From NCBI RefSeq assembly GCF_900112315.1, contig NZ_FOLL01000012.1, positions 1 through 64,000 of the forward strand: a DNA stretch of 64,000 nucleotides, given 5' to 3'. This DNA is from Parapedobacter composti. GTDB lineage: Bacteria; Bacteroidota; Bacteroidia; Sphingobacteriales; Sphingobacteriaceae. The position numbers and the translations under genes were made by a program. Below, in pieces: positions 12,744 to 22,597 of this stretch (positions are counted from its first letter, which is position 1; every line of letters starts with the position of its first letter). The notes under the pieces are model-generated. The model was not told the origin of the DNA and made no database searches. It saw nothing but the letters and a program-made list of their open reading frames with translations.

Positions 12744-15029
12744 ATGAAATTCTCTTTGGTTATTATTTTTTTCCTGACGCTGCTGGCAGCACGGGCCCAG
12801 GAAGTTACCCAGGTGGATCGTCCGTTGGACTACGTTAATCCCCTGATGGGCACGCAGTCGGTGCATTTGCTTTCCAATGGAAACACGTATCCCGCCATTG
12901 CCCGGCCGTGGGGCATGAACTTCTGGTCGCCCCAAACAGGCAAGATGGGAGACGGGTGGATGTACACGTATACGGCCGATAAGATACGGGGCTTTAAGCA
13001 AACCCATCAGCCGTCGCCCTGGATGAATGATTACGGGCAGTTTTCCATCATGCCCCTCACGGGCAAACCAACATTTGATGAAAATGAACGGGCGAGCTGG
13101 TTTTCGCATAAGGCGGAAATCGCCAAGCCGCATTATTATAGCGTTTACCTGGCCGACCACGACCTGACCACGGAGATTACGCCTACCGAGCGGGCGGCCC
13201 GTTTCCGTTTTACCTTCCCGGAAACGGATAGCGCGTTTGTGGTCATTGACGCGTTTGACAAAGGGTCTTATGTGAAGATTATTCCAGGCGAAAATAAGGT
13301 TGTCGGCTATACCACGCGTAACAGCGGCGGCGTACCGGATAATTTCAAGAACTACTTCGTAATCGTATTTGACCGTCCCTTTGCCAATGTGGCCACGTTT
13401 GCCGATTCCGTGTTGGTGAATGATCGCCTGGAGATACAGGCCGACCACGTAGGGGCCATCGTGGGGTTCCAGACCAGCCGCCGGGGGGAGCAGGTACAGG
13501 CGAAGGTAGCCTCCTCATTCATCAGCCACGAGCAGGCCGAATTGAACCTGCGGGAGATTGGCGACAAGGACTTTGAGACGGTGAAACAGGAAGGAGAAGA
13601 CCAGTGGAATACCGAACTGGGCAAAGTACGGGTAAGCGGCGGAACCATTGACCAGGTGCGTACGTTCTATTCCTGCCTGTACCGCACAATTTTGTTCCCG
13701 CGTATGTTTTACGAGTATGACGCCGACGGCAATGTGATGCATTACAGTCCGTACAACGGGCAGGTGCTGCCGGGCTACATGTTTACCGATACGGGATTCT
13801 GGGATACGTTCCGGGCGCTGTTCCCTTTCCTTAACCTCGTATATCCGGAGATGAACCAGAAGATGCAGGAAGGACTGGTGAATGCCTATAAGGAGGGCGG
13901 ATGGCTGCCCGAATGGGCCAGTCCGGGTTACCGTAATATCATGGTAGGGAACAATTCGGCTTCGGTGGTGGCCGATGCCTATATTAAAGGTCTGCGTGGG
14001 TATGACATCGAAACATTGTATGAAGCCGTATTAAAGGGGGCGAACAATGCCGGACCGATCACAGCGGTAGGCCGCGCAGGCGCTGAATATTACACAACAT
14101 TGGGCTATGTACCGTACGATGTAAACATCAACGAAAATGCGGCCCGTACACTGGAGTATGCGTATGACGACTTCGCCATCTACCAGTTGGCCAAGGCGCT
14201 CGGGCGCCCGGCGGATGAAATTGCGCTGTACCGCGAACGGAGCTTCAACTATAAAAAGCTGTTCGACAAAGGAACCGGCCTGATGCGCGGCAAAAACAAG
14301 GACGGCAGCTTCCAAAGCCCGTTTAACCCGTTCAAGTGGGGCGATGCGTTTACCGAGGGCAACAGCTGGCATTATTCGTGGTCGGTTTTCCAAGACGTGG
14401 AGGGCCTGGCACAGCTGATGGGTGGGCATGAAGCGTTTGTTACCAAGCTGGATTCGGTGTTTTCTTTGCCTCCGATATTTGACCATAGTTACTATGGCTT
14501 TACCATCCATGAAATCCGCGAGATGCAGATTGCCAATATGGGGCAGTATGCACATGGCAACCAGCCCATCCAGCATATGATATACCTGTACAACTACGCC
14601 GGAGCACCCTGGAAAGCCCAGTATTGGGTACGCGAAACAATGGAACGCATGTATTGGCCCACGCCGGACGGGTACTGCGGAGATGAAGACAACGGGCAGA
14701 CCTCAGCGTGGTACGTGTTTTCGGCGCTGGGCTTCTACCCGGTTACCCCCGCCACGGACGAATATGTGCTGGGGGCGCCGTTGTTCAAGAAAGCCACCAT
14801 CGAGCTGCCAAACGGGAAAACCATCGAAATAAACGCACCGGAAAACGGACAGGAAAACCGGTATATCCAGTCGCTTAAGCTAAACGGCAAGCCGCATTCG
14901 AAGAATTACCTGAGGCACGGCGAATTGGTTAACGGCGCTGTGCTGGATTTCGGCATGTCGGATGCGCCGAATACGAAGCGGGGTACGGAACCGGAAGATT
15001 TTCCGTTTTCGCTGAGTTTGGAGAAATAG
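12744..15029 (+). CDS. GH92 family alpha-mannosidase, secreted
   Basis: A 761-residue protein with a Sec signal (MKFSLVIIFFLTLLAARAQ). It opens with the GH92 start (DYVNPLMGTQSVHLLSNGNT, YPAIARPWGMNFWSPQTG). It also carries GGWLPEWASPGYRNIMVGNN and, at about residues 645-660, GDEDNGQTSAWYVFSALGFY. In characterised GH92 enzymes the paired acidic residues of the GDED segment act with calcium as the catalytic base. The family cuts alpha-mannose linkages of N-glycans or mannan with inversion. It follows the ECF sigma gene by 129 bases on the same strand and probably acts on what the neighbouring SusC/SusD system captures. The exact linkage cannot be read. Confidence 0.93.
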   Translation: MKFSLVIIFFLTLLAARAQEVTQVDRPLDYVNPLMGTQSVHLLSNGNTYPAIARPWGMNFWSPQTGKMGDGWMYTYTADKIRGFKQTHQPSPWMNDYGQFSIMPLTGKPTFDENERASWFSHKAEIAKPHYYSVYLADHDLTTEITPTERAARFRFTFPETDSAFVVIDAFDKGSYVKIIPGENKVVGYTTRNSGGVPDNFKNYFVIVFDRPFANVATFADSVLVNDRLEIQADHVGAIVGFQTSRRGEQVQAKVASSFISHEQAELNLREIGDKDFETVKQEGEDQWNTELGKVRVSGGTIDQVRTFYSCLYRTILFPRMFYEYDADGNVMHYSPYNGQVLPGYMFTDTGFWDTFRALFPFLNLVYPEMNQKMQEGLVNAYKEGGWLPEWASPGYRNIMVGNNSASVVADAYIKGLRGYDIETLYEAVLKGANNAGPITAVGRAGAEYYTTLGYVPYDVNINENAARTLEYAYDDFAIYQLAKALGRPADEIALYRERSFNYKKLFDKGTGLMRGKNKDGSFQSPFNPFKWGDAFTEGNSWHYSWSVFQDVEGLAQLMGGHEAFVTKLDSVFSLPPIFDHSYYGFTIHEIREMQIANMGQYAHGNQPIQHMIYLYNYAGAPWKAQYWVRETMERMYWPTPDGYCGDEDNGQTSAWYVFSALGFYPVTPATDEYVLGAPLFKKATIELPNGKTIEINAPENGQENRYIQSLKLNGKPHSKNYLRHGELVNGAVLDFGMSDAPNTKRGTEPEDFPFSLSLEK

Positions 15030-15036
15030 AATATGA

Positions 15037-15903
15037 TTATTGCAGGTAAGCCCTCTGATAATTCAAAGGGCTTTTTCCTGTAATTTGCTTAAAATACTTA
15101 TGGAACCCGGCGAAGTTATGGAACCCGCTTTCATAGCATATCTGTTTGACGTTAAGTTGATTTTCGATAAGCAGCTTGCAGGCATGGCCGACCCGCAGTT
15201 CGATGAGAAACTGGGAGAATGTTTTGCCGGTGCGTGATTTGAAGTAGCGGCAGAACGCGTTGTCACTCATACCGGCTACCGCGGCAACCTCACTGAGGGC
15301 GATTTTCTGCTTGAAATTGCGCAGGGCGAAGTCATAGATGTTGCTGATGCGGTCTTTCTCGCGGTGCTGGAAATGGGGAGCGAAGCCAATGGAAGAAAGC
15401 AACTGGATGTCTTTGCTGCTGGCGATGGCCATAAGCGCTTCGATAAGCAGGATAATCCGCTTTGTGCCTTCGGCCTCGAGCAGGGCGGCCAGCAATTCCT
15501 GCACCCGTGCCCGGGCGGCCCCGTAAATGGCGATGCCCTGTTTGGCCTGTTGAAGCAAGTGCTTGATGCTGGTGTTTTCCGGCAAGTCAAGGAAGGTTCC
15601 GCCCCAGAAGTCATCATTGAAATGTGTCACGTAGATATCGGCGCCCCTGCCGTTTTGGGGACTGAAATAGCTGCTGTCAAAACTCCAGTAATGGGGCAGG
15701 TTGGATCCGATCAGCACGACATCGCCCGAACAGAAATTACGGATGCTGTCGCCTACGAACTGTGTGCCACTTCCTCTCTCAAAGTAAATAAGTTCAATCT
15801 CGGGATGGTAATGCCAGCGATTATTGAGGTAGGGTACGGTATCCCGTCTGGCACTGAATGAATGAGTGGGCGATGTGCTTACCTTGCGTAACTGCGGTTT
15901 CAT
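15037..15903 (-). CDS. AraC family regulator with cupin sensor domain
   Basis: A 288-residue protein. The N-terminal half is a cupin fold (WHYHPEIELIYFERGSGTQF, SGDVVLIGSNLPHYW) of the type that binds a small sugar. The C-terminal hundred residues carry two AraC helix-turn-helix motifs (KIALSEVAAVAGMSDNAFCR; NVKQICYESGFHNFAGFHKY, KQITGKSPLNYQR). It is divergent from fucP with 158 bases between, so it very likely controls the L-fucose operon; direct repeats in the gap are a candidate operator. Its 3' end converges on the GH92 gene with 7 bases between. Confidence 0.9.
   Translation of the reverse strand: MKPQLRKVSTSPTHSFSARRDTVPYLNNRWHYHPEIELIYFERGSGTQFVGDSIRNFCSGDVVLIGSNLPHYWSFDSSYFSPQNGRGADIYVTHFNDDFWGGTFLDLPENTSIKHLLQQAKQGIAIYGAARARVQELLAALLEAEGTKRIILLIEALMAIASSKDIQLLSSIGFAPHFQHREKDRISNIYDFALRNFKQKIALSEVAAVAGMSDNAFCRYFKSRTGKTFSQFLIELRVGHACKLLIENQLNVKQICYESGFHNFAGFHKYFKQITGKSPLNYQRAYLQ
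15048..15076 (+). terminator. Hairpin terminator for the GH92 gene, inside the araC-type 3' end
   Basis: AAGCCCT (15048-15054) pairs perfectly with AGGGCTT (15067-15073), followed by a run of five T to 15076. It lies 19 bases after the GH92 stop and within the last codons of the convergent regulator. Confidence 0.6.
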
Positions 15904-16061: not shown

Positions 16062-17306
16062 ATGGCGAAACGATATTCAATGATTCCTGTGGTCTTGGTC
16101 ACATCCCTGTTTTTCCTGTGGGGGCTGGCCAACAATATGACCGATACGTTATTGGCAGCGTTCAAGAAGATCATGTCCATGACGGATGCGCAGACCTCCT
16201 TAATCCAAATGTCGTTTTATGGCGCTTACTTTGTCCTTGCCTTGCCGGCTGCATTGTATATCCGGCGGTATAGTTATAAGTCGGGTATTTTGCTTGGCGT
16301 GGGATTATTCACCGCGGGGGCGCTGCTGTTTTATCCGGCAAGCAGGACAATGGATTATGCACATTTTCTGATCGCATTGTTTGTTTTGGCCGGCGGATTA
16401 TCCATACTGGAAACGGCTGCCAATCCCTATATTTTAAGTTTGGGGCCCGCCCAAACGGCGACACGGCGATTAAACATCGCCCAATCCTTTAATCCGATAG
16501 GATCCATCACGGGCGTGGTGCTCAGCAAGTTCATCATCCTCTCCGCCCTCAATCGTGCGGGGCACGAAGAAAGAGCGGGTATGGACAGTGCTGCACTGAA
16601 ACAAATCCAGTCGGTTGAACTGGGTGCCGTCATGCAGGCTTATGTGGGATTGGCAATCGTATTGGCGGCGGTTTGGTTACTCATTAGGTTGGTGAAGATG
16701 CCAACGGATACGGACACAGACAAGCGTGATATCGGGCAAGCGTTTTCCAAGCTTTTTCGAAACAGGAATTATGTAACCGGGGTCATCGCCCAGTTTTTTT
16801 ATGTGGGGGCACAGATTGGCGTGTGGTCGTTCACTATCCGGTATGTGATGCAGGAATTGCAATTGGACGAGGGGGGAGCATCGGACTACTATATTGCGTC
16901 GCTCGTGGTGTTTATGGTGTGCCGCTTTATAGCGGCAGGGCTGATGCGATATGTAAGACCGGCGCGGTTACTGACTGTGCTATCTGTACTGGCTATCCTG
17001 TTGGCGCTTATCGTGGCTTTGGGAGGTGGGCATGCAGGGGTATATGCATTGATTGCCATTTCGGGATGTATGAGCCTGATGTTTCCAACGATATACGGAC
17101 TTGCCTGTGACGGGTTGGGCAGCGACCGGAAGATTGGTGGTGCGGGACTTATCATGGCGATCCTCGGAGGGGCGGTGCTGACTTATGTGCAGGGGTTGCT
17201 TTCAGATGCAACGAACAGTATTAACTTGTCATACCTGGTGCCCTTGTGCTGTTTTGCTGTGGTTGCCGTGTACGGCTTTTCCCGTTGGCGGGCGGTTCAG
17301 ATTTAA
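16062..17306 (+). CDS. fucP: L-fucose:proton symporter, FucP-type MFS permease
   Basis: A 414-residue membrane protein with about twelve hydrophobic segments and the FucP-family start SLFFLWGLANNMTDTLLAAF, including the acidic Asp of NNMTD in the first helix. ILETAANPYILSLGP and NIAQSFNPIGSITGVVLSK are family hallmarks. It brings L-fucose across the inner membrane with protons. It is first in a same-strand run with a mutarotase and five catabolic enzymes, which supports L-fucose over other sugars of the family such as glucose or galactose. Confidence 0.9.
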   Translation: MAKRYSMIPVVLVTSLFFLWGLANNMTDTLLAAFKKIMSMTDAQTSLIQMSFYGAYFVLALPAALYIRRYSYKSGILLGVGLFTAGALLFYPASRTMDYAHFLIALFVLAGGLSILETAANPYILSLGPAQTATRRLNIAQSFNPIGSITGVVLSKFIILSALNRAGHEERAGMDSAALKQIQSVELGAVMQAYVGLAIVLAAVWLLIRLVKMPTDTDTDKRDIGQAFSKLFRNRNYVTGVIAQFFYVGAQIGVWSFTIRYVMQELQLDEGGASDYYIASLVVFMVCRFIAAGLMRYVRPARLLTVLSVLAILLALIVALGGGHAGVYALIAISGCMSLMFPTIYGLACDGLGSDRKIGGAGLIMAILGGAVLTYVQGLLSDATNSINLSYLVPLCCFAVVAVYGFSRWRAVQI

Positions 17307-17313
17307 TCAGTAT

Positions 17314-17670
17314 ATGGAACGATATGTGTTGACCCTGGATTTGCAGGATGATGCCCGTCTTATTGCGGAATACGAACGGTGGCACCAGGAAGTGTGGCCT
17401 GAAATCAAGGAATCCATTTTTGGTTCAGGGATCAGGCGTATGGAAATTTACCGGTTTTCGAACCGGTTGGTGATGGTGATGGAGACTGACGATGGGTTTT
17501 CATTTGAACAGAAAGCGGAGGCCGATGCCGCCAATCCGCGTGTGCAGGAATGGGAACAGCTGATGTGGACGTACCAGCGTCCGGTTCGGGGTGCCAATCC
17601 TGGCGAAAAGTGGGTATTAATGGATAAAATTTTTGAACTTAGTAGGCTTGATATAGAACATGAACGATAA
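17314..17670 (+). CDS. L-rhamnose mutarotase family protein, probable L-fucose mutarotase
   Basis: A 118-residue protein starting at the ATG at 17314, seven bases after the permease stop; an overlapping upstream extension falls inside fucP and was rejected. It matches the RhaM/RhaU fold family (MERYVLTLDLQDD, YERWHQEVWPEIKESIFGSG, RRMEIYRFSNRLVMVME), with the conserved His of WHQEVWPE. These enzymes interconvert sugar anomers so that the dehydrogenase receives its preferred form. The L-fucose assignment rests on neighbours. It overlaps the next gene by 11 bases. Confidence 0.85.
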   Translation: MERYVLTLDLQDDARLIAEYERWHQEVWPEIKESIFGSGIRRMEIYRFSNRLVMVMETDDGFSFEQKAEADAANPRVQEWEQLMWTYQRPVRGANPGEKWVLMDKIFELSRLDIEHER

Positions 17671-19321
17671 ACAGCTTTTTTTACAGATTCATCCCGAGGA
17701 TAATGTATTGGTAGCGTTGCAGGATCTGCCCGCCGGAATGGAAATCCGTTTCGGGGATGCGCATTTCCGGCTTGTTGGCGGCGTGAAGGCGAAGCATAAA
17801 TTTACATTGGAGCCTTTGGCCGCGGGCGACGAGGTGCGCATGTATGGTGTGCTGGTGGGGCGGACGAACGCGGCGTTGCCGCAGGGGGAAACCATTACCA
17901 CAGAAAACATCCACCACGCGGCGAGCCCCTTTGAGCTCGGCCCCCGGAAACTGGACTGGCAAAAGCCGGATGTTTCGGCGTTTGCGGGACGCACTTTTAT
18001 GGGATACCACCGTACCAATGGTGCCGTGGGCACGGCTAACTATTGGCTGGTTATCCCCATGGTGTTCTGCGAAAACCGCAATGTATTGGTGATGAAGCAA
18101 GCCCTGGAGGAAAAGCTGGGTTATACCAAGCGGTCGCGCGACTACGAGCCGGAGGTAGACCAGCTTATCGAGCTGTACCGTGCGGGAAGCACCGTAGAGG
18201 ATATCCTGAATGCCGATATCTCGGCCAGCAAACGACGGGACAGCGGGCAGCGGCTGTTTGAACATGTGGATGGCGTAAAGTTCCTGAACCACCAGATGGG
18301 ATGCGGCGGCACGCGGACCGATGCGGAAACGCTTTGCGGCTTGCTTGCCGGATACATCACCCATCCGAATGTAGCGGGGGCTACGGTGCTGAGCTTGGGA
18401 TGCCAGCATGCACAGGCGTCTATCCTGCGGGAAGAGATAGCCAAACGCGACCCGGCGTTTGACAAACCGCTCTATATTTTTGAGCAGCAACTGATGGGCA
18501 CGGAGACGAACTTGATCCAGCAGGCGCTGAAACATACGTTTGCCGGGTTGATGCAGGCTAACCAGCTTCGGCGGCAGCCTGCTCCGCTGAACAAGTTATG
18601 CCTCGGTCTGGAATGTGGGGGATCTGACGGATTTTCGGGCATATCGGCCAACCCGGCGCTGGGCTATGTATCTGACATGCTGGTAACGATGGGCGGATCG
18701 GTAATCCTTTCCGAATTTCCTGAGCTTTGCGGAGTGGAGCAGAATTTAAGCGATCGGTGCGTGGATGAGCCCACGGCCCTGCGGTTCATGGAGCTGATGC
18801 AAACCTACGCGGCTAAGGCCGAGGCGGATGGCTCTGGGTTTTACGCCAACCCCTCGCCGGGCAACATCCGGGACGGCCTCATTACCGATGCCATCAAGTC
18901 TGCCGGTGCAGCGAAAAAAGGCGGTACATCACCGGTAACGGCTGTAGTAGATTATCCGGGGGCGGTGAATAAGCCTGGATTGAACCTGTTATGTACGCCG
19001 GGCAATGATGTGGAAAGTACAACGGCCGAGGTGGGTGCGGGGGCCAACGTGGTTCTGTTTACCACGGGACTCGGTACGCCCACGGGTAACCCGATAGCGC
19101 CGGTCATCAAGCTGTCAACAAATACCAAATTATTCGAACGTATGCCGGATATCATTGATATCAACTGCGGTACCATCATCGAGGGCACGGAAACCATTCA
19201 GCAGGTGGCGCACCGGATTCTGGATTATATCATCGATGTGGCCAGCGGCAACGTGCAGCCCAAGGCGGTGTTATTGGGACAGGACGACTTTATCCCCTGG
19301 CGCAGGGGGGTATCATTATAA
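17660..19321 (+). CDS. UxaA/altronate dehydratase family, probable L-fuconate dehydratase
   Basis: A 553-residue protein of the fused UxaA architecture: an N-terminal SAF domain (about 1-95, with AAGDEVRMYGVLVGRTNA) and a C-terminal altronate/galactarate dehydratase domain. Conserved Cys-rich motifs are present (NHQMGCGGTRTDAE, LSLGCQHAQ, LGLECGGSDGFSGISANPAL, DINCGTIIEGTETI). Family members remove water from sugar acids with a metal cofactor. Here it sits among L-fucose genes where the Xanthomonas pathway has an enolase-superfamily fuconate dehydratase. I infer that it converts L-fuconate to 2-keto-3-deoxy-L-fuconate. True altronate dehydratase is the alternative, but no other uronate gene is present. 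Confidence 0.8.
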   Translation: MNDKQLFLQIHPEDNVLVALQDLPAGMEIRFGDAHFRLVGGVKAKHKFTLEPLAAGDEVRMYGVLVGRTNAALPQGETITTENIHHAASPFELGPRKLDWQKPDVSAFAGRTFMGYHRTNGAVGTANYWLVIPMVFCENRNVLVMKQALEEKLGYTKRSRDYEPEVDQLIELYRAGSTVEDILNADISASKRRDSGQRLFEHVDGVKFLNHQMGCGGTRTDAETLCGLLAGYITHPNVAGATVLSLGCQHAQASILREEIAKRDPAFDKPLYIFEQQLMGTETNLIQQALKHTFAGLMQANQLRRQPAPLNKLCLGLECGGSDGFSGISANPALGYVSDMLVTMGGSVILSEFPELCGVEQNLSDRCVDEPTALRFMELMQTYAAKAEADGSGFYANPSPGNIRDGLITDAIKSAGAAKKGGTSPVTAVVDYPGAVNKPGLNLLCTPGNDVESTTAEVGAGANVVLFTTGLGTPTGNPIAPVIKLSTNTKLFERMPDIIDINCGTIIEGTETIQQVAHRILDYIIDVASGNVQPKAVLLGQDDFIPWRRGVSL

Positions 19322-19339
19322 GGATTACCATAAACAATC

Positions 19340-20113
19340 ATGATGTCAACTAAGAAACTGAACAGTAAAACGGCAATTATCACAGGCGGCGGCAGCGGGA
19401 TAGGACGCGCCATCAGCCTCTGTTTTGCCGCAGAAGGTGCTTCGGTGCATATTCTGGAGTTAAATACGGCCACAGCCGATGTGTTGGCCGAAGAAATCCG
19501 GGCAGGTGGTGGAACGGCAACCGTCCACGCTTGCGATGTAAGCCGGCAAGACCAGGTGCTGGCCGTAATACATGGTATCGGAAAGGCGGATATTTTGGTG
19601 AACAATGCGGGGATTGCCCATGTGGGAAACGTGGAAACCACCAGCGAGGCCGATTTTGACCGGATTTACTCCGTAAATATCAAAGGCGCATACAATATGC
19701 TGCATGCTGTGGTGCCGCTGATGAAAGAAAACGGGGGTGGGGCGATTCTTAACATGGCATCGATAGCGGCGTGGGTTGGCCTATCCGACCGATTTGCCTA
19801 TTCGGCCAGCAAAGGTGCCGTTTATGCGATGACCCTGTCGGTAGCCCGTGATTACCTGCATTACGGAATCCGTTGCAATAGCCTATCGCCGGCGCGGGTA
19901 CATACTCCTTTCGTAGATGGGTTCATTGCCAAAAATTATCCCGGCCGGGAAGCCGAGATGTTTGAAACGTTATCCAAAAGCCAGCCGATCGGCCGGATGG
20001 CCAAGCCGGAGGAAATTGCCTCCTTGGCGCTTTACCTATGCTCCGACGAAGCGGCCTTCATCACAGGGAACGACTATCCCATTGATGGTGGCTTTATCAA
20101 ATTGAATAATTAA
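19340..20113 (+). CDS. SDR oxidoreductase, probable 2-keto-3-deoxy-L-fuconate dehydrogenase
   Basis: A 257-residue classical short-chain dehydrogenase with the cofactor motif TGGGSGIG (about 15-22), NNAG (88-91), Ser141, and catalytic Tyr154 and Lys158 in YSASK, ending in YPIDGGFIKLNN. Glu40 after the second strand favours NAD over NADP. It follows the dehydratase by 18 bases. In the non-phosphorylating L-fucose route an SDR oxidises 2-keto-3-deoxy-L-fuconate to the 2,4-diketo acid, and this copy, with a complete catalytic set and placed between dehydratase and FAH hydrolase, fits that step best. Confidence 0.8.
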   Translation: MMSTKKLNSKTAIITGGGSGIGRAISLCFAAEGASVHILELNTATADVLAEEIRAGGGTATVHACDVSRQDQVLAVIHGIGKADILVNNAGIAHVGNVETTSEADFDRIYSVNIKGAYNMLHAVVPLMKENGGGAILNMASIAAWVGLSDRFAYSASKGAVYAMTLSVARDYLHYGIRCNSLSPARVHTPFVDGFIAKNYPGREAEMFETLSKSQPIGRMAKPEEIASLALYLCSDEAAFITGNDYPIDGGFIKLNN

Positions 20114-20130
20114 TCGATATACTATAAAAG

Positions 20131-20988
20131 ATGAAGTTAATCCGATATGGCGACCCCGGCCGCGAACAGATAGGGGTACACCTGAATGGCATCAATTACG
20201 ATGTTTCCGCGTTCGGTGGTGATTACGACGAACAATTTTTTGGAAGTAACGGTCTGGACAGGCTGGAGGAGTTTGTGAAAGCCAACGAAGGGGCGTTAAT
20301 TCCAATTCCCGAAGGTGCACGGCTGGGCAGTCCGATCGCGCGTCCTTCGAAAATTGTCTGCATCGGATTGAATTACCGTGACCATGCCGAAGAAACCGGT
20401 GCGAAAATTCCGACGGAACCTATCATTTTCATGAAATCGACCACATCGCTTAGCGGTCCGTTTGACGATATCGTTATCCCCAAAAATTCCAGCAAGACGG
20501 ACTGGGAAGTGGAGGTCGGTGTCGTCATCGGCAGACGGGCTACCTATGTGGAGGAATCGGCGGCGATGGACCATGTGGCGGGCTACGTGCTTCATAACGA
20601 TGTTTCTGAGCGGGAGTTTCAGCTGGAGCGCGGCGGCACGTGGGATAAGGGCAAGGGCTGTGACACCTTTGCGCCGATAGGACCTTTTTTGGCAACGCCG
20701 CAGGAGATTACGGATATTGATAATGTGCGGCTATGGCTTACCGTGAACGGCAAGGCCTACCAGGACGGGAATACCCGAAACCTGATATTCAGCATTCCGT
20801 TTATTATCAGTTACGTGAGCCAGTTCATGACACTGTTGCCGGGCGACGTGATTTCCACGGGTACACCCGCCGGCGTGGGGCTTGGCTTTCAGCCGCCGGT
20901 ATACCTCAAGCCCGGCGATGTGGTGGAACTGGGAGCCGATGGCCTGGGGACTTCACGCCAGGTGGTGAAAGCCTATGGAACGGATTGA
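20131..20988 (+). CDS. FAH-family hydrolase, probable 2,4-diketo-3-deoxy-L-fuconate hydrolase
   Basis: A 285-residue fumarylacetoacetate hydrolase fold protein. The core begins at PSKIVCIGLNYRDHAEETGA. Metal-binding acidic residues are visible in DWEVEVGVVIG and HNDVSERE, then WDKGKGCDTFAPIGP and the closing GDVISTGTPAGVG. Such enzymes cut a C-C bond in diketo acids; here the expected products are pyruvate and L-lactate. It starts 17 bases after the SDR and overlaps the lactonase gene by 14 bases, so they are translationally linked. Acylpyruvase or ureidoglycolate lyase names given by annotation pipelines fit the neighbours less well. Confidence 0.82.
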   Translation: MKLIRYGDPGREQIGVHLNGINYDVSAFGGDYDEQFFGSNGLDRLEEFVKANEGALIPIPEGARLGSPIARPSKIVCIGLNYRDHAEETGAKIPTEPIIFMKSTTSLSGPFDDIVIPKNSSKTDWEVEVGVVIGRRATYVEESAAMDHVAGYVLHNDVSEREFQLERGGTWDKGKGCDTFAPIGPFLATPQEITDIDNVRLWLTVNGKAYQDGNTRNLIFSIPFIISYVSQFMTLLPGDVISTGTPAGVGLGFQPPVYLKPGDVVELGADGLGTSRQVVKAYGTD

Positions 20989-21805
20989 TGCACACCAGCA
21001 TTTCTGGCGGTACCATCCGGTAAAAGACGCATGGATTACCGATGATATGGCGGTTATCCAGCGGGATTTCATGCCGGCTGATCTGAAAACTGTTTACGAT
21101 ACCCACGGGATATCCGGCTGCGTAGCTGTGCAGGCCGGCCAATCGGAGGAGGAAACGCTGTTTCTCCTCCGATTGGCCGACGAATACCCTTTTATCAAGG
21201 GAGTGGTAGGCTGGGTCGATCTGCAGGACGAGCGTGTGGAGGAGCGGCTCGCTTTTTTCAGCAGGTATCCCAAGCTCAAGGGGTTCCGTCACATTGTCCA
21301 GGGGGAAGAGGACCCGCGCTTTTTGCTTCGCCCGGCATTCCTGGCCGGCATCGAGGCGCTGGGGCGCTTCGGTTATACCTATGATATCCTGGTGAAGCCC
21401 CATCAACTGGACGCCGTGCTGGAATTTGTGGATGGTTTTCCCCGCCAGCGGTTTGTTATTGACCACCTGGCCAAACCTTACATCAAAGCGCGGGTACACG
21501 AACCCTGGGCTACGCAGATGGCAGTCCTGGCGCAATACCCTAACGTCTGCTGCAAATTATCGGGTATGGTTACCGAGGCCGACTGGAATACCTGGAAGCC
21601 GGCCGATTTTTCCTATTATATCCAGCATGTCCTTCAGTCGTTCGGTCCGGAAAGGGTGATGTTCGGTTCCGATTGGCCGGTGTGCCTGGTGGCGGCGGAC
21701 TACAAGGCGGTATTATCGCTGGTGGAGGATGCTGTTGGACGGTTTACCTTAGCCGAGCAGGCGTTGGTTTGGCATAAAAATGCCACGGATTTTTATAAAC
21801 TATAG
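20975..21805 (+). CDS. Amidohydrolase-family lactonase, probable L-fuconolactone hydrolase
   Basis: A 276-residue TIM-barrel metallohydrolase of the COG3618 family. Metal ligands are expected in RIDAHQHFW (residues 3-11), FVIDHLAKP and FGSDWPVC. The family includes L-fucono- and L-rhamnono-lactonases, which open the aldonolactone made by sugar dehydrogenases. It is coupled to the FAH gene by a 14-base overlap and followed nine bases later by the second SDR. Its coding sequence contains a long inverted repeat (21136-21179). Confidence 0.85.
   Translation: MERIDAHQHFWRYHPVKDAWITDDMAVIQRDFMPADLKTVYDTHGISGCVAVQAGQSEEETLFLLRLADEYPFIKGVVGWVDLQDERVEERLAFFSRYPKLKGFRHIVQGEEDPRFLLRPAFLAGIEALGRFGYTYDILVKPHQLDAVLEFVDGFPRQRFVIDHLAKPYIKARVHEPWATQMAVLAQYPNVCCKLSGMVTEADWNTWKPADFSYYIQHVLQSFGPERVMFGSDWPVCLVAADYKAVLSLVEDAVGRFTLAEQALVWHKNATDFYKL
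21136..21179 (+). repeat. Near-perfect inverted repeat (hairpin) inside the lactonase gene
   Basis: Bases 21136-21151 (C, then GGCCAATCGGAGGAG) pair without mismatch with 21164-21179. After a one-base bulge four further pairs follow, closing on the three-base loop GCT. Twenty pairs in 44 bases would give a very stable RNA hairpin. It encodes the stretch QSEEETLFLLRLADE. Confidence 0.85.
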
Positions 21806-21814
21806 TATATAGAC

Positions 21815-22597
21815 ATGGATTTGAACCTGAAAGACAAAATCGTGATCGTTACGGGCGGAGCCAAGGGCATTGGCAAGGGTATTGCGCTGGCGCTGGCGGA
21901 GGAAGGGGCTATTCCGGTGATTGTCGGCCGCAGACGTACCGACAATGAATTGGTGCGGCAGGAGATTGAAGCAAGGGGCGGACGTGCTTTCTGCGTGGAG
22001 GCCGAGCTTACCCGTCCGGACGACTGCCAACGGGCGGTCAGTGAGACACTGGCGCGGTTCGGCCGAATTGATGGTTTAGTGAACAATGCCGGGGTAAACG
22101 ATGGCGTGGGATTGGAAAACGGAGGATATCAGCAATTTGTAGATAGCCTGCATAAGTCGCTGGTTCACTATTACCTGATGGCTCACCATGCCTTACCCGC
22201 ACTGAAGTCGAGTAAAGGTGCGATCATTAATATCAGTTCCAAAACCGCTGAAACCGGACAGGGGAACACGTCGGGCTATGCCGCCGCCAACGGTGGACGC
22301 AATGCGCTGACGCGGGAGTGGGCCGTGGAGTTGTTGCCTTACGGCATCCGGGTAAATGCCATTATCGTAGCGGAGTGCTATACGCCATTATATGAGAAAT
22401 GGATACAGACGCTTCCCAATCCAGAAGGGGCATTGGCTAAGATTACCCAACGCATACCGCTCGGGAGACGGATGACTACGGTAGGGGAGATTGCCGATAT
22501 GACGGTGTTCCTGTTGTCGGAGCGGTCAAGCCATACAACGGGTCAGCTTATCCATGTGGACGGTGGCTATGTGCACCTGGATAGGGCGATAGATTGA
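21815..22597 (+). CDS. SDR oxidoreductase, probable L-fucose dehydrogenase, with atypical YxxxN motif
   Basis: A 260-residue short-chain dehydrogenase: cofactor motif TGGAKGIG (13-20), NNAG (90-93), Ser142 in INISSK, Tyr155. The usual catalytic Lys of YxxxK is Asn159 (YAAAN, codon AAC). The rest of the fold is complete (EWAVELLPYGIRVNAIIVAE, QLIHVDGGYVHLD). The last gene of the fucose run, nine bases after the lactonase. The first pathway step needs an L-fucose dehydrogenase, and this is the only unassigned oxidoreductase, so the role is inferred from position and resemblance to sugar-oxidising SDRs. It ends four bases from the convergent accA. Confidence 0.75.
   Translation: MDLNLKDKIVIVTGGAKGIGKGIALALAEEGAIPVIVGRRRTDNELVRQEIEARGGRAFCVEAELTRPDDCQRAVSETLARFGRIDGLVNNAGVNDGVGLENGGYQQFVDSLHKSLVHYYLMAHHALPALKSSKGAIINISSKTAETGQGNTSGYAAANGGRNALTREWAVELLPYGIRVNAIIVAECYTPLYEKWIQTLPNPEGALAKITQRIPLGRRMTTVGEIADMTVFLLSERSSHTTGQLIHVDGGYVHLDRAID

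Follow-up and report, generated by a model that had tools for sequence, protein, structure and literature searches.

An arginine one helical turn on is a candidate replacement for the catalytic lysine in an asparagine-type branch of Bacteroidota L-fucose dehydrogenases

Introduction

Few catalytic residues of the very large SDR superfamily are as conserved as the lysine of the YxxxK motif, and SDRs are called active or dead by whether they have it. A gene of the L-fucose dehydrogenase type from Parapedobacter composti (21815-22597, 260 residues, recognised by its match to the family NF052481 and its similarity to the structure 4gkb) carries asparagine at this position, within a complete operon, which raises the question of whether the gene is in error, is decaying, or encodes an active site that works in another way. 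The gene lies in what is referred to here as the window, the whole stretch of 64,000 nucleotides that was analysed (contig NZ_FOLL01000012.1, positions 1 to 64,000); the residues and operon genes described below are on its + strand. Relatives with asparagine or lysine at the position equivalent to residue 159 are referred to as Asn-type and Lys-type respectively.

The answer that we prefer, and to which we give about even credence, is that the window protein is a working L-fucose 1-dehydrogenase of a Bacteroidota branch whose catalytic helix has undergone a rewiring, probably a single time, with Lys159 becoming asparagine and the cation moving to Arg162 on helix F. The substitution, its fixation among the members of the branch that were read, its pairing with Arg162 and the gene context are observed directly; activity, coenzyme and the part played by Arg162 are inferred.

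Asparagine at the position of the catalytic lysine

Codons 153-161 (22271-22297) read S-G-Y-A-A-A-N-G-G, with the catalytic Tyr155 encoded by TAT at 22277-22279 and Asn159 by AAC at 22289-22291, at the place of the catalytic lysine. The initial annotation had reported a YAAAN motif with these residues and this codon, and frame, residues and coordinates are all as it described. It had also placed Ser142 13 residues ahead of Tyr155, which the sequence bears out and which is the spacing demanded of a classical SDR. The coenzyme motif TGxxxGxG is present as TGGAKGIG at residues 13-20, and NNAG is found at residues 90-93.

The protein departs from the classical type at two points: YxxxK is replaced by YAAAN, and the tetrad asparagine of helix E by Ser115 (22157-22159). 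YAAAN agrees with the YxxxN motif of complex (ketoreductase-type) SDRs, but the window enzyme is a free-standing protein of 260 residues and not part of a multidomain synthase. Three features go beyond the initial annotation, namely Ser115 at the tetrad position, Arg162 directly after the stretch 22271-22297, and a second SDR in the operon that has a YSASK motif.

Family assignment, fold and coenzyme

The window protein matches NF052481 (FucosDh, an equivalog family) with 428.5 bits against a curated cut-off of 300, residues 1-259 aligning to profile positions 1-257, and of the 29 SDR matches in the genome no other passes that cut-off. Its description as the sole candidate for the first pathway step therefore stands as far as the curated family is concerned, although six aldo-keto reductases are also encoded in the genome. 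The remainder of the fold, said in the initial annotation to be complete, is supported by an AlphaFold2 model with a mean pLDDT of 94.0, whose best solved match is 4gkb_B (Z 40.0, 258 aligned residues, rmsd 1.4). Judged from its sequence, the protein is a fucose dehydrogenase by curated model and gene context, and by its active site it is not a canonical classical SDR.

Lys17 and Arg39, which we take to be residues typical of NADP-type SDRs, suggest NADP as the coenzyme, so that the window enzyme is probably NADP-dependent. Among 204 Asn-type proteins Lys17 is found in 186, with arginine in 16, and Arg39 in 203.

The fucose operon and its counterparts

The operon begins with fucP, encoding an L-fucose:H+ symporter (16062-17306; TIGR00885, 466 bits, cut-off 280.4), followed by a RhaM-family mutarotase (17314-17670; PF05336, 105.3 bits; start codon chosen in this analysis) and a presumed L-fuconate dehydratase (17660-19321; PF20629, 317.1 bits; 266.3 bits against the galactarate dehydratase cut-off of 730.85). 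The latter belongs to the altronate/galactarate dehydratase family and not to the enolase superfamily. Next come the second SDR, a presumed 2-keto-3-deoxy-L-fuconate dehydrogenase with a normal YSASK motif in its sequence (19340-20113; PF13561, 191.0 bits), a fumarylacetoacetate-hydrolase (FAH)-family protein, presumed to be the 2,4-diketo-3-deoxy-L-fuconate hydrolase (20131-20988; PF01557, 241.4 bits), and an amidohydrolase, presumed to be the L-fucono-1,5-lactonase (20975-21805), with the fucose dehydrogenase at the end. The FAH hydrolase scores 343.9 bits against the cut-off of 500 of its best NCBIfam family, and the lactonase 280.0 bits against the cut-off of 400 of NF052480, its only NCBIfam match; since both fall under these curated cut-offs, they are regarded as divergent members. 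An AraC-type regulator (15037-15903, - strand; PF12833, 79.8 bits) is divergent to the operon that it heads, and upstream of it lies a GH92 family gene (12744-15029), homologues of which were found at 2 of 87 Asn-type loci.

The neighbours that make up the non-phosphorylated fucose pathway are in one operon in the window, and the window enzyme would catalyse the first step of this pathway. Many relatives keep these neighbours. Among 87 Asn-type loci spanning 8.5 kb or more, the FAH hydrolase was found in 69, the second SDR (identity threshold 45%) in 63, the RhaM-type mutarotase in 62, the lactonase in 60, the altronate-type dehydratase in 53 and FucP in 48. The corresponding numbers at 38 Lys-type loci are lactonase 33, FAH hydrolase 27, FucP 22, RhaM 18, second SDR 16 and altronate-type dehydratase 5. 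An enolase-type L-fuconate dehydratase occurs at 15 of the 38 Lys-type loci and at none of the 87 Asn-type loci. For both types these counts are lower bounds, because flanks were mostly 6 kb and some were cut by contig ends. Outside these 87, the Asn-type locus L146, when read with its flanks (as L279), adjoins a lactonase, a hydrolase, a second SDR, a RhaM-type mutarotase and an enolase-type dehydratase that is 63% identical to an annotated L-fuconate dehydratase.

Asparagine is fixed in a branch of relatives

Over all loci that were read, 245 distinct full-length proteins were obtained, of which 204 carry asparagine at residue 159 and 41 lysine, with no third residue; 204 to 41 is not a natural frequency, since the queries were Asn-type sequences or close to them and the loci were taken in order of likeness to these. 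The count includes L142, an Asn-type copy with an internal stop that was kept out of the trees, and leaves aside L195, which was matched in two pieces and has lysine in the piece covering residue 159. At least about 40 family-level matches lie outside the survey. Identity to the window protein is 64.5-100% for Asn-type proteins and at most 65.0% for Lys-type proteins.

The first 110 homologous loci, some of them from the same genomes, all have asparagine, encoded by AAT in 70 and AAC in 40, as do all 60 further copies from the same taxonomic family, which were picked mostly among the less similar ones. A phylum-wide sample of 395 genomes yielded matches in 55 of them, at 61 places in all; the 60 places read (a second copy in genome G416 being left out) divide into 30 Asn-type and 30 Lys-type. 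Of 39 matching plasmid records 12 were read, giving one asparagine (Spirosoma) and 11 lysines, one of the latter in a record matched in two pieces. Among the best 80 of 566 relatives, the nearest named ones are Parapedobacter species (84, 83 and 81% identity), and all are labelled as Bacteroidota (Sphingobacteriaceae, Chitinophagaceae, Cytophagales and others) except for one labelled only 'bacterium A37T11'.

Asn159 is not an error and probably not the mark of a dead copy. The presence of asparagine in 204 of 245 distinct relatives, written either as AAT or as AAC, excludes chance or error, and sequencing error, isolated decay or a pseudogene was rejected on this ground. Against eight congeners dN is 0.10-0.145, with synonymous distances saturated and not computable in seven of the eight and a dN/dS of 0.047 in the other. 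Low dN beside saturated synonymous sites, the 204 distinct Asn-type proteins (the window's included) and the use of both codons leave a negligible probability to the reading in which a single copy was misread or has decayed, and nothing was found in its support.

The initial annotation had proposed to align homologues from fucose clusters and see whether the asparagine is conserved. It is: the closer homologues, which mostly lie among fucose-pathway genes, carry asparagine and not lysine, contrary to the alternative of an isolated change among Lys-type homologues. Of the three explanations that it had offered, a conserved variant of the subfamily is what the survey found, and this variant probably exists because the site has diverged to use another base; an inactive copy is improbable. 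Asn159 and Arg162 shared by some 200 copies point to a working alternative active site rather than a broken gene.

Residues that accompany the asparagine

Every one of the 204 Asn-type proteins has Arg162 (22298-22300), the proposed relocated cation. The 41 Lys-type proteins all lack it and have valine (19), glutamine (18), isoleucine (3) or methionine (1) there. When all 260 positions were compared over 140 Asn-type and 39 Lys-type rows, Arg162 was the only cation found in every Asn-type row and in no Lys-type row, and this was unchanged at 204 and 41.

Several other residues follow the Asn type less strictly. Asn163 (22301-22303) is found in 199 of 204 Asn-type proteins and 3 of 41 Lys-type proteins (L147, L153 and L159); residue 146, Glu in the window (22250-22252), is acidic in 200 of 204 and 2 of 41; and Val185 (22367-22369) occurs in 202 of 204 and 1 of 41. 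Proline, which is usual at the 185-equivalent place in SDRs, is present in 26 of the 41 Lys-type proteins. His113 (22151-22153) is found in 203 of 204 Asn-type and 1 of 41 Lys-type proteins. It was considered as the replacement for the lysine and judged less likely than Arg162, since the Asn-type L146 has Gln113 and yet Asn159, Arg162 and Asn163.

Residue 115 is asparagine in all 41 Lys-type proteins, and asparagine (177), serine (24) or threonine (3) in the Asn type. According to excerpts of PMC10864336, a water bound by the tetrad asparagine hands a proton to the lysine, and a loosened residue 115 would be expected where the lysine, the proton acceptor of this relay, has been lost.

The residues common to both types include Tyr155 and Ser142 (245 of 245 each), as well as Asn95, Asp96, Gln149, Thr190, Tyr193, His240 and His254, among others, in all 204 Asn-type and all 41 Lys-type proteins; Glu187 is kept in 202 of 204 and 41 of 41. 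With Tyr155 and Ser142 retained, ordinary SDR chemistry would be expected, for which some group has to depress the tyrosine pKa and bind the ribose.

Directly C-terminal of the catalytic serine (Ser142 and Lys143, 22238-22243) the family has a lysine of its own, found in 243 of 245 members and replaced by leucine in the human homologue. An active fucose dehydrogenase could therefore be imagined in which the cation is Lys143, or in which there is none: Asn159 would hold the ribose, Lys143 or a water chain would tune Tyr155, and Arg162 would be structural. As a feature of the fucose family (202 of the 204 Asn-type proteins and all 41 of the Lys type), Lys143 may have allowed Lys159 to be lost. 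It is, however, equally conserved where Lys159 is present, which argues for a separate function of Lys143; it is replaced by arginine in 2 of the 204 Asn-type proteins, and the strict pattern of Arg162 is left unexplained. We consider such a mechanism, the main rival to a relocated cation at Arg162, unlikely, with nonetheless an appreciable chance of being correct.

A proposed active site and its geometry

In the mechanism that we prefer, with Arg162 as the cation, the lysine at Tyr+4 has given way to Asn159, and an arginine has been gained at Tyr+7, on the same face of the helix and about one turn further on. Tyr155 would still be the base that takes the proton of the C1 hydroxyl, with Ser142 holding this hydroxyl. 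The guanidinium group of Arg162 would reach back into the space vacated by the lysine amine, where it would lower the pKa of the tyrosine and hold the nicotinamide ribose, and Asn159 may connect Arg162, Tyr155 and the ribose through hydrogen bonds.

Residues 155, 159 and 162 lie on one face of an ideal helix. With the distance between the tyrosine hydroxyl and the lysine amine set to a range of 3.0-4.8 Å, 209 Tyr/Lys placements were examined on a bare helix that lacks sheet, coenzyme and neighbours. In 28% of them an arginine at 162 brings a guanidinium nitrogen to within 2 Å of where the lysine amine would be (best 0.33 Å, median 2.80 Å). Arginine at 161 or 166 never comes within 5 Å of this site, whereas at 163 (minimum 1.62 Å) or 158 (minimum 0.85 Å) it also reaches it, so that the test is permissive; the comparison positions were sampled more coarsely than 162. 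On the bare helix, then, Arg162 can reach the vacated lysine site, which is a possibility and not a fact. It could be structural instead, for example by pairing with Glu146.

Comparison with known systems

The closest solved structure, 4gkb from B. multivorans, resembles the window enzyme in fold, length and the equivalents of the serine, tyrosine, Lys143, Gln149 and Glu187, with 57-58% identity in the structure search and a Z of 40.0. It differs in having YCASK, glutamine at the 162 place and the tetrad asparagine, where the window enzyme has YAAAN, Arg162 and Ser115. C. jejuni FucX (Cj0485; PDB 6drr, 6ds1), described in excerpts of PMC6946681 as a dehydrogenase of L-fucose and D-arabinose, has the same fold (Z 38.8) and is 46-47% identical to the window enzyme, but retains the lysine (YASAK). 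Human HSD17B14 is likewise an L-fucose dehydrogenase of the SDR fold, with Ser141 and Tyr154, according to excerpts of PMC11293516; it is about 36% identical and differs in that Lys158 is present, and a K158A mutant of it has been crystallised, going by the title of 6h0m. The characterised SDR-type fucose dehydrogenases compared here (B. multivorans, FucX and HSD17B14) are thus all of the Lys type, and literature searches for a YxxxN or Asn-type fucose dehydrogenase returned neither an assay nor a paper among the results examined.

In ketoreductases the catalytic lysine is generally placed on helix E, where the tetrad asparagine would otherwise be. A similar exchange in the Asn type, with the lysine supplied from helix E near that position, would agree with YxxxN being the motif of 'complex' SDRs, as given in excerpts of PMC3144213 and PMC10864336. 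These, the ketoreductase domains of polyketide and fatty acid synthases, share asparagine at Tyr+4 with the window enzyme, which differs from them in being single-domain, in having no lysine at the tetrad position and in its new arginine at Tyr+7. Residue 114, beside the tetrad position, is lysine in 162 of the 204 Asn-type proteins, but it is not fixed (arginine in 22, asparagine in 11, serine in 9 others), and lysine at 115 itself is found in 0 of 204. For want of a lysine at 115, an exchange of the ketoreductase type was rejected as the likely mechanism, and its probability is very low. A polyketide ketoreductase for alignment was sought in two genomes, with none at a threshold of 1e-30, and no synthase ketoreductase domain was recognised among the best 50 Foldseek and 50 VIA rows, which is not evidence either way.

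Arg162 as the relocated cation would mean that the catalytic cation of a classical SDR lineage was shifted within a single helix, from lysine at Tyr+4 to arginine at Tyr+7, in one ancient step within Bacteroidota, and that the lineage remained a working dehydrogenase in the many descendants that were read; to this whole chain of events we give somewhat less than even credence. If it is correct, it would add another type of SDR active site to YxxxK, YxxMxxxK and the YxxxN of ketoreductases. A large, ordinary-looking clade without the lysine, with a clear candidate replacement and with Lys-type relatives of up to 65% identity, makes the replacement of an essential residue directly testable. For annotation, single-domain YxxxN SDRs should not be called inactive from the motif alone.

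Genomes with two copies

The branch may also have lost or changed the dehydrogenase reaction, whether by adopting another substrate, as a slow, sensor-like enzyme or as a structural partner, with another enzyme starting the pathway. Six genomes of one family (f4) in the phylum sample have two matches, and the five in which both were read have one Asn-type and one Lys-type copy, so that a division of labour is possible there; the Asn-type copy L142, which has an internal stop, is from such a two-copy genome, and the six aldo-keto reductases of the window's genome are further conceivable sources of the activity. On the other hand, 24 of the 30 Asn-type genomes in the phylum sample, the window's among them, have a single match at the threshold used, the residues common with the Lys type are kept, and the operon in the window is complete. 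The probability that the reaction was lost or changed is, in our view, low.

The five genomes carry their Asn-type and Lys-type copies at separate places (L128/L172, L135/L162, L136/L163, L139/L166 and L142/L171). In two genomes the surroundings of both copies were read (L185/L162 and L186/L166), and each copy lies among fucose-pathway genes. The two copies possibly divide substrates or coenzymes between them. In genome G377, the Asn-type L142 has one in-frame stop and the Lys-type L171 has none.

Origin and order of the changes

A quick tree was built from 179 family members, with the second SDR as outgroup, giving 180 rows. In it the Asn-type proteins form one side of a branch with an SH-aLRT of 86. 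The root, as given by the outgroup branch, falls among Lys-type rows, but this rooting is weak because that branch is at its length limit, and the view that lysine is ancestral rests more on lysine being the rule in SDRs. In a reduced tree of 82 rows, from which six trait columns had been removed, the branch has an ultrafast bootstrap of 91 and an SH-aLRT of 29; a single change suffices in 90% of 200 bootstrap trees, the range being 1-2 changes. A single origin of the Asn type in Bacteroidota is therefore favoured by the sequence trees, though not proven. Since the change probably happened once, the pairing of residues 159 and 162 counts as one event and not as independent covariation.

The Lys-type proteins L147, L153 and L159 group together in the quick tree (support 80), beneath a fork shared with a Lys-type group of 14 rows and the Asn clade, whose relative order the tree does not settle. 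Asn163 is present in each of L147, L153 and L159, and an acidic residue 146 in two of them; in the careful tree L159 joins L190 as a long branch, and its placement is unsure. Inside the Asn clade, L146 is the first to branch off in the quick tree; it has Asn159, Arg162, Asn163 and Val185, but Gln113 and Phe146. A possible order, as read from these sequences, is that Asn163 came first, followed by Lys159 to asparagine together with Arg162, with His113 fixed later. An acidic residue 146 is scattered on both sides of the Asn/Lys split.
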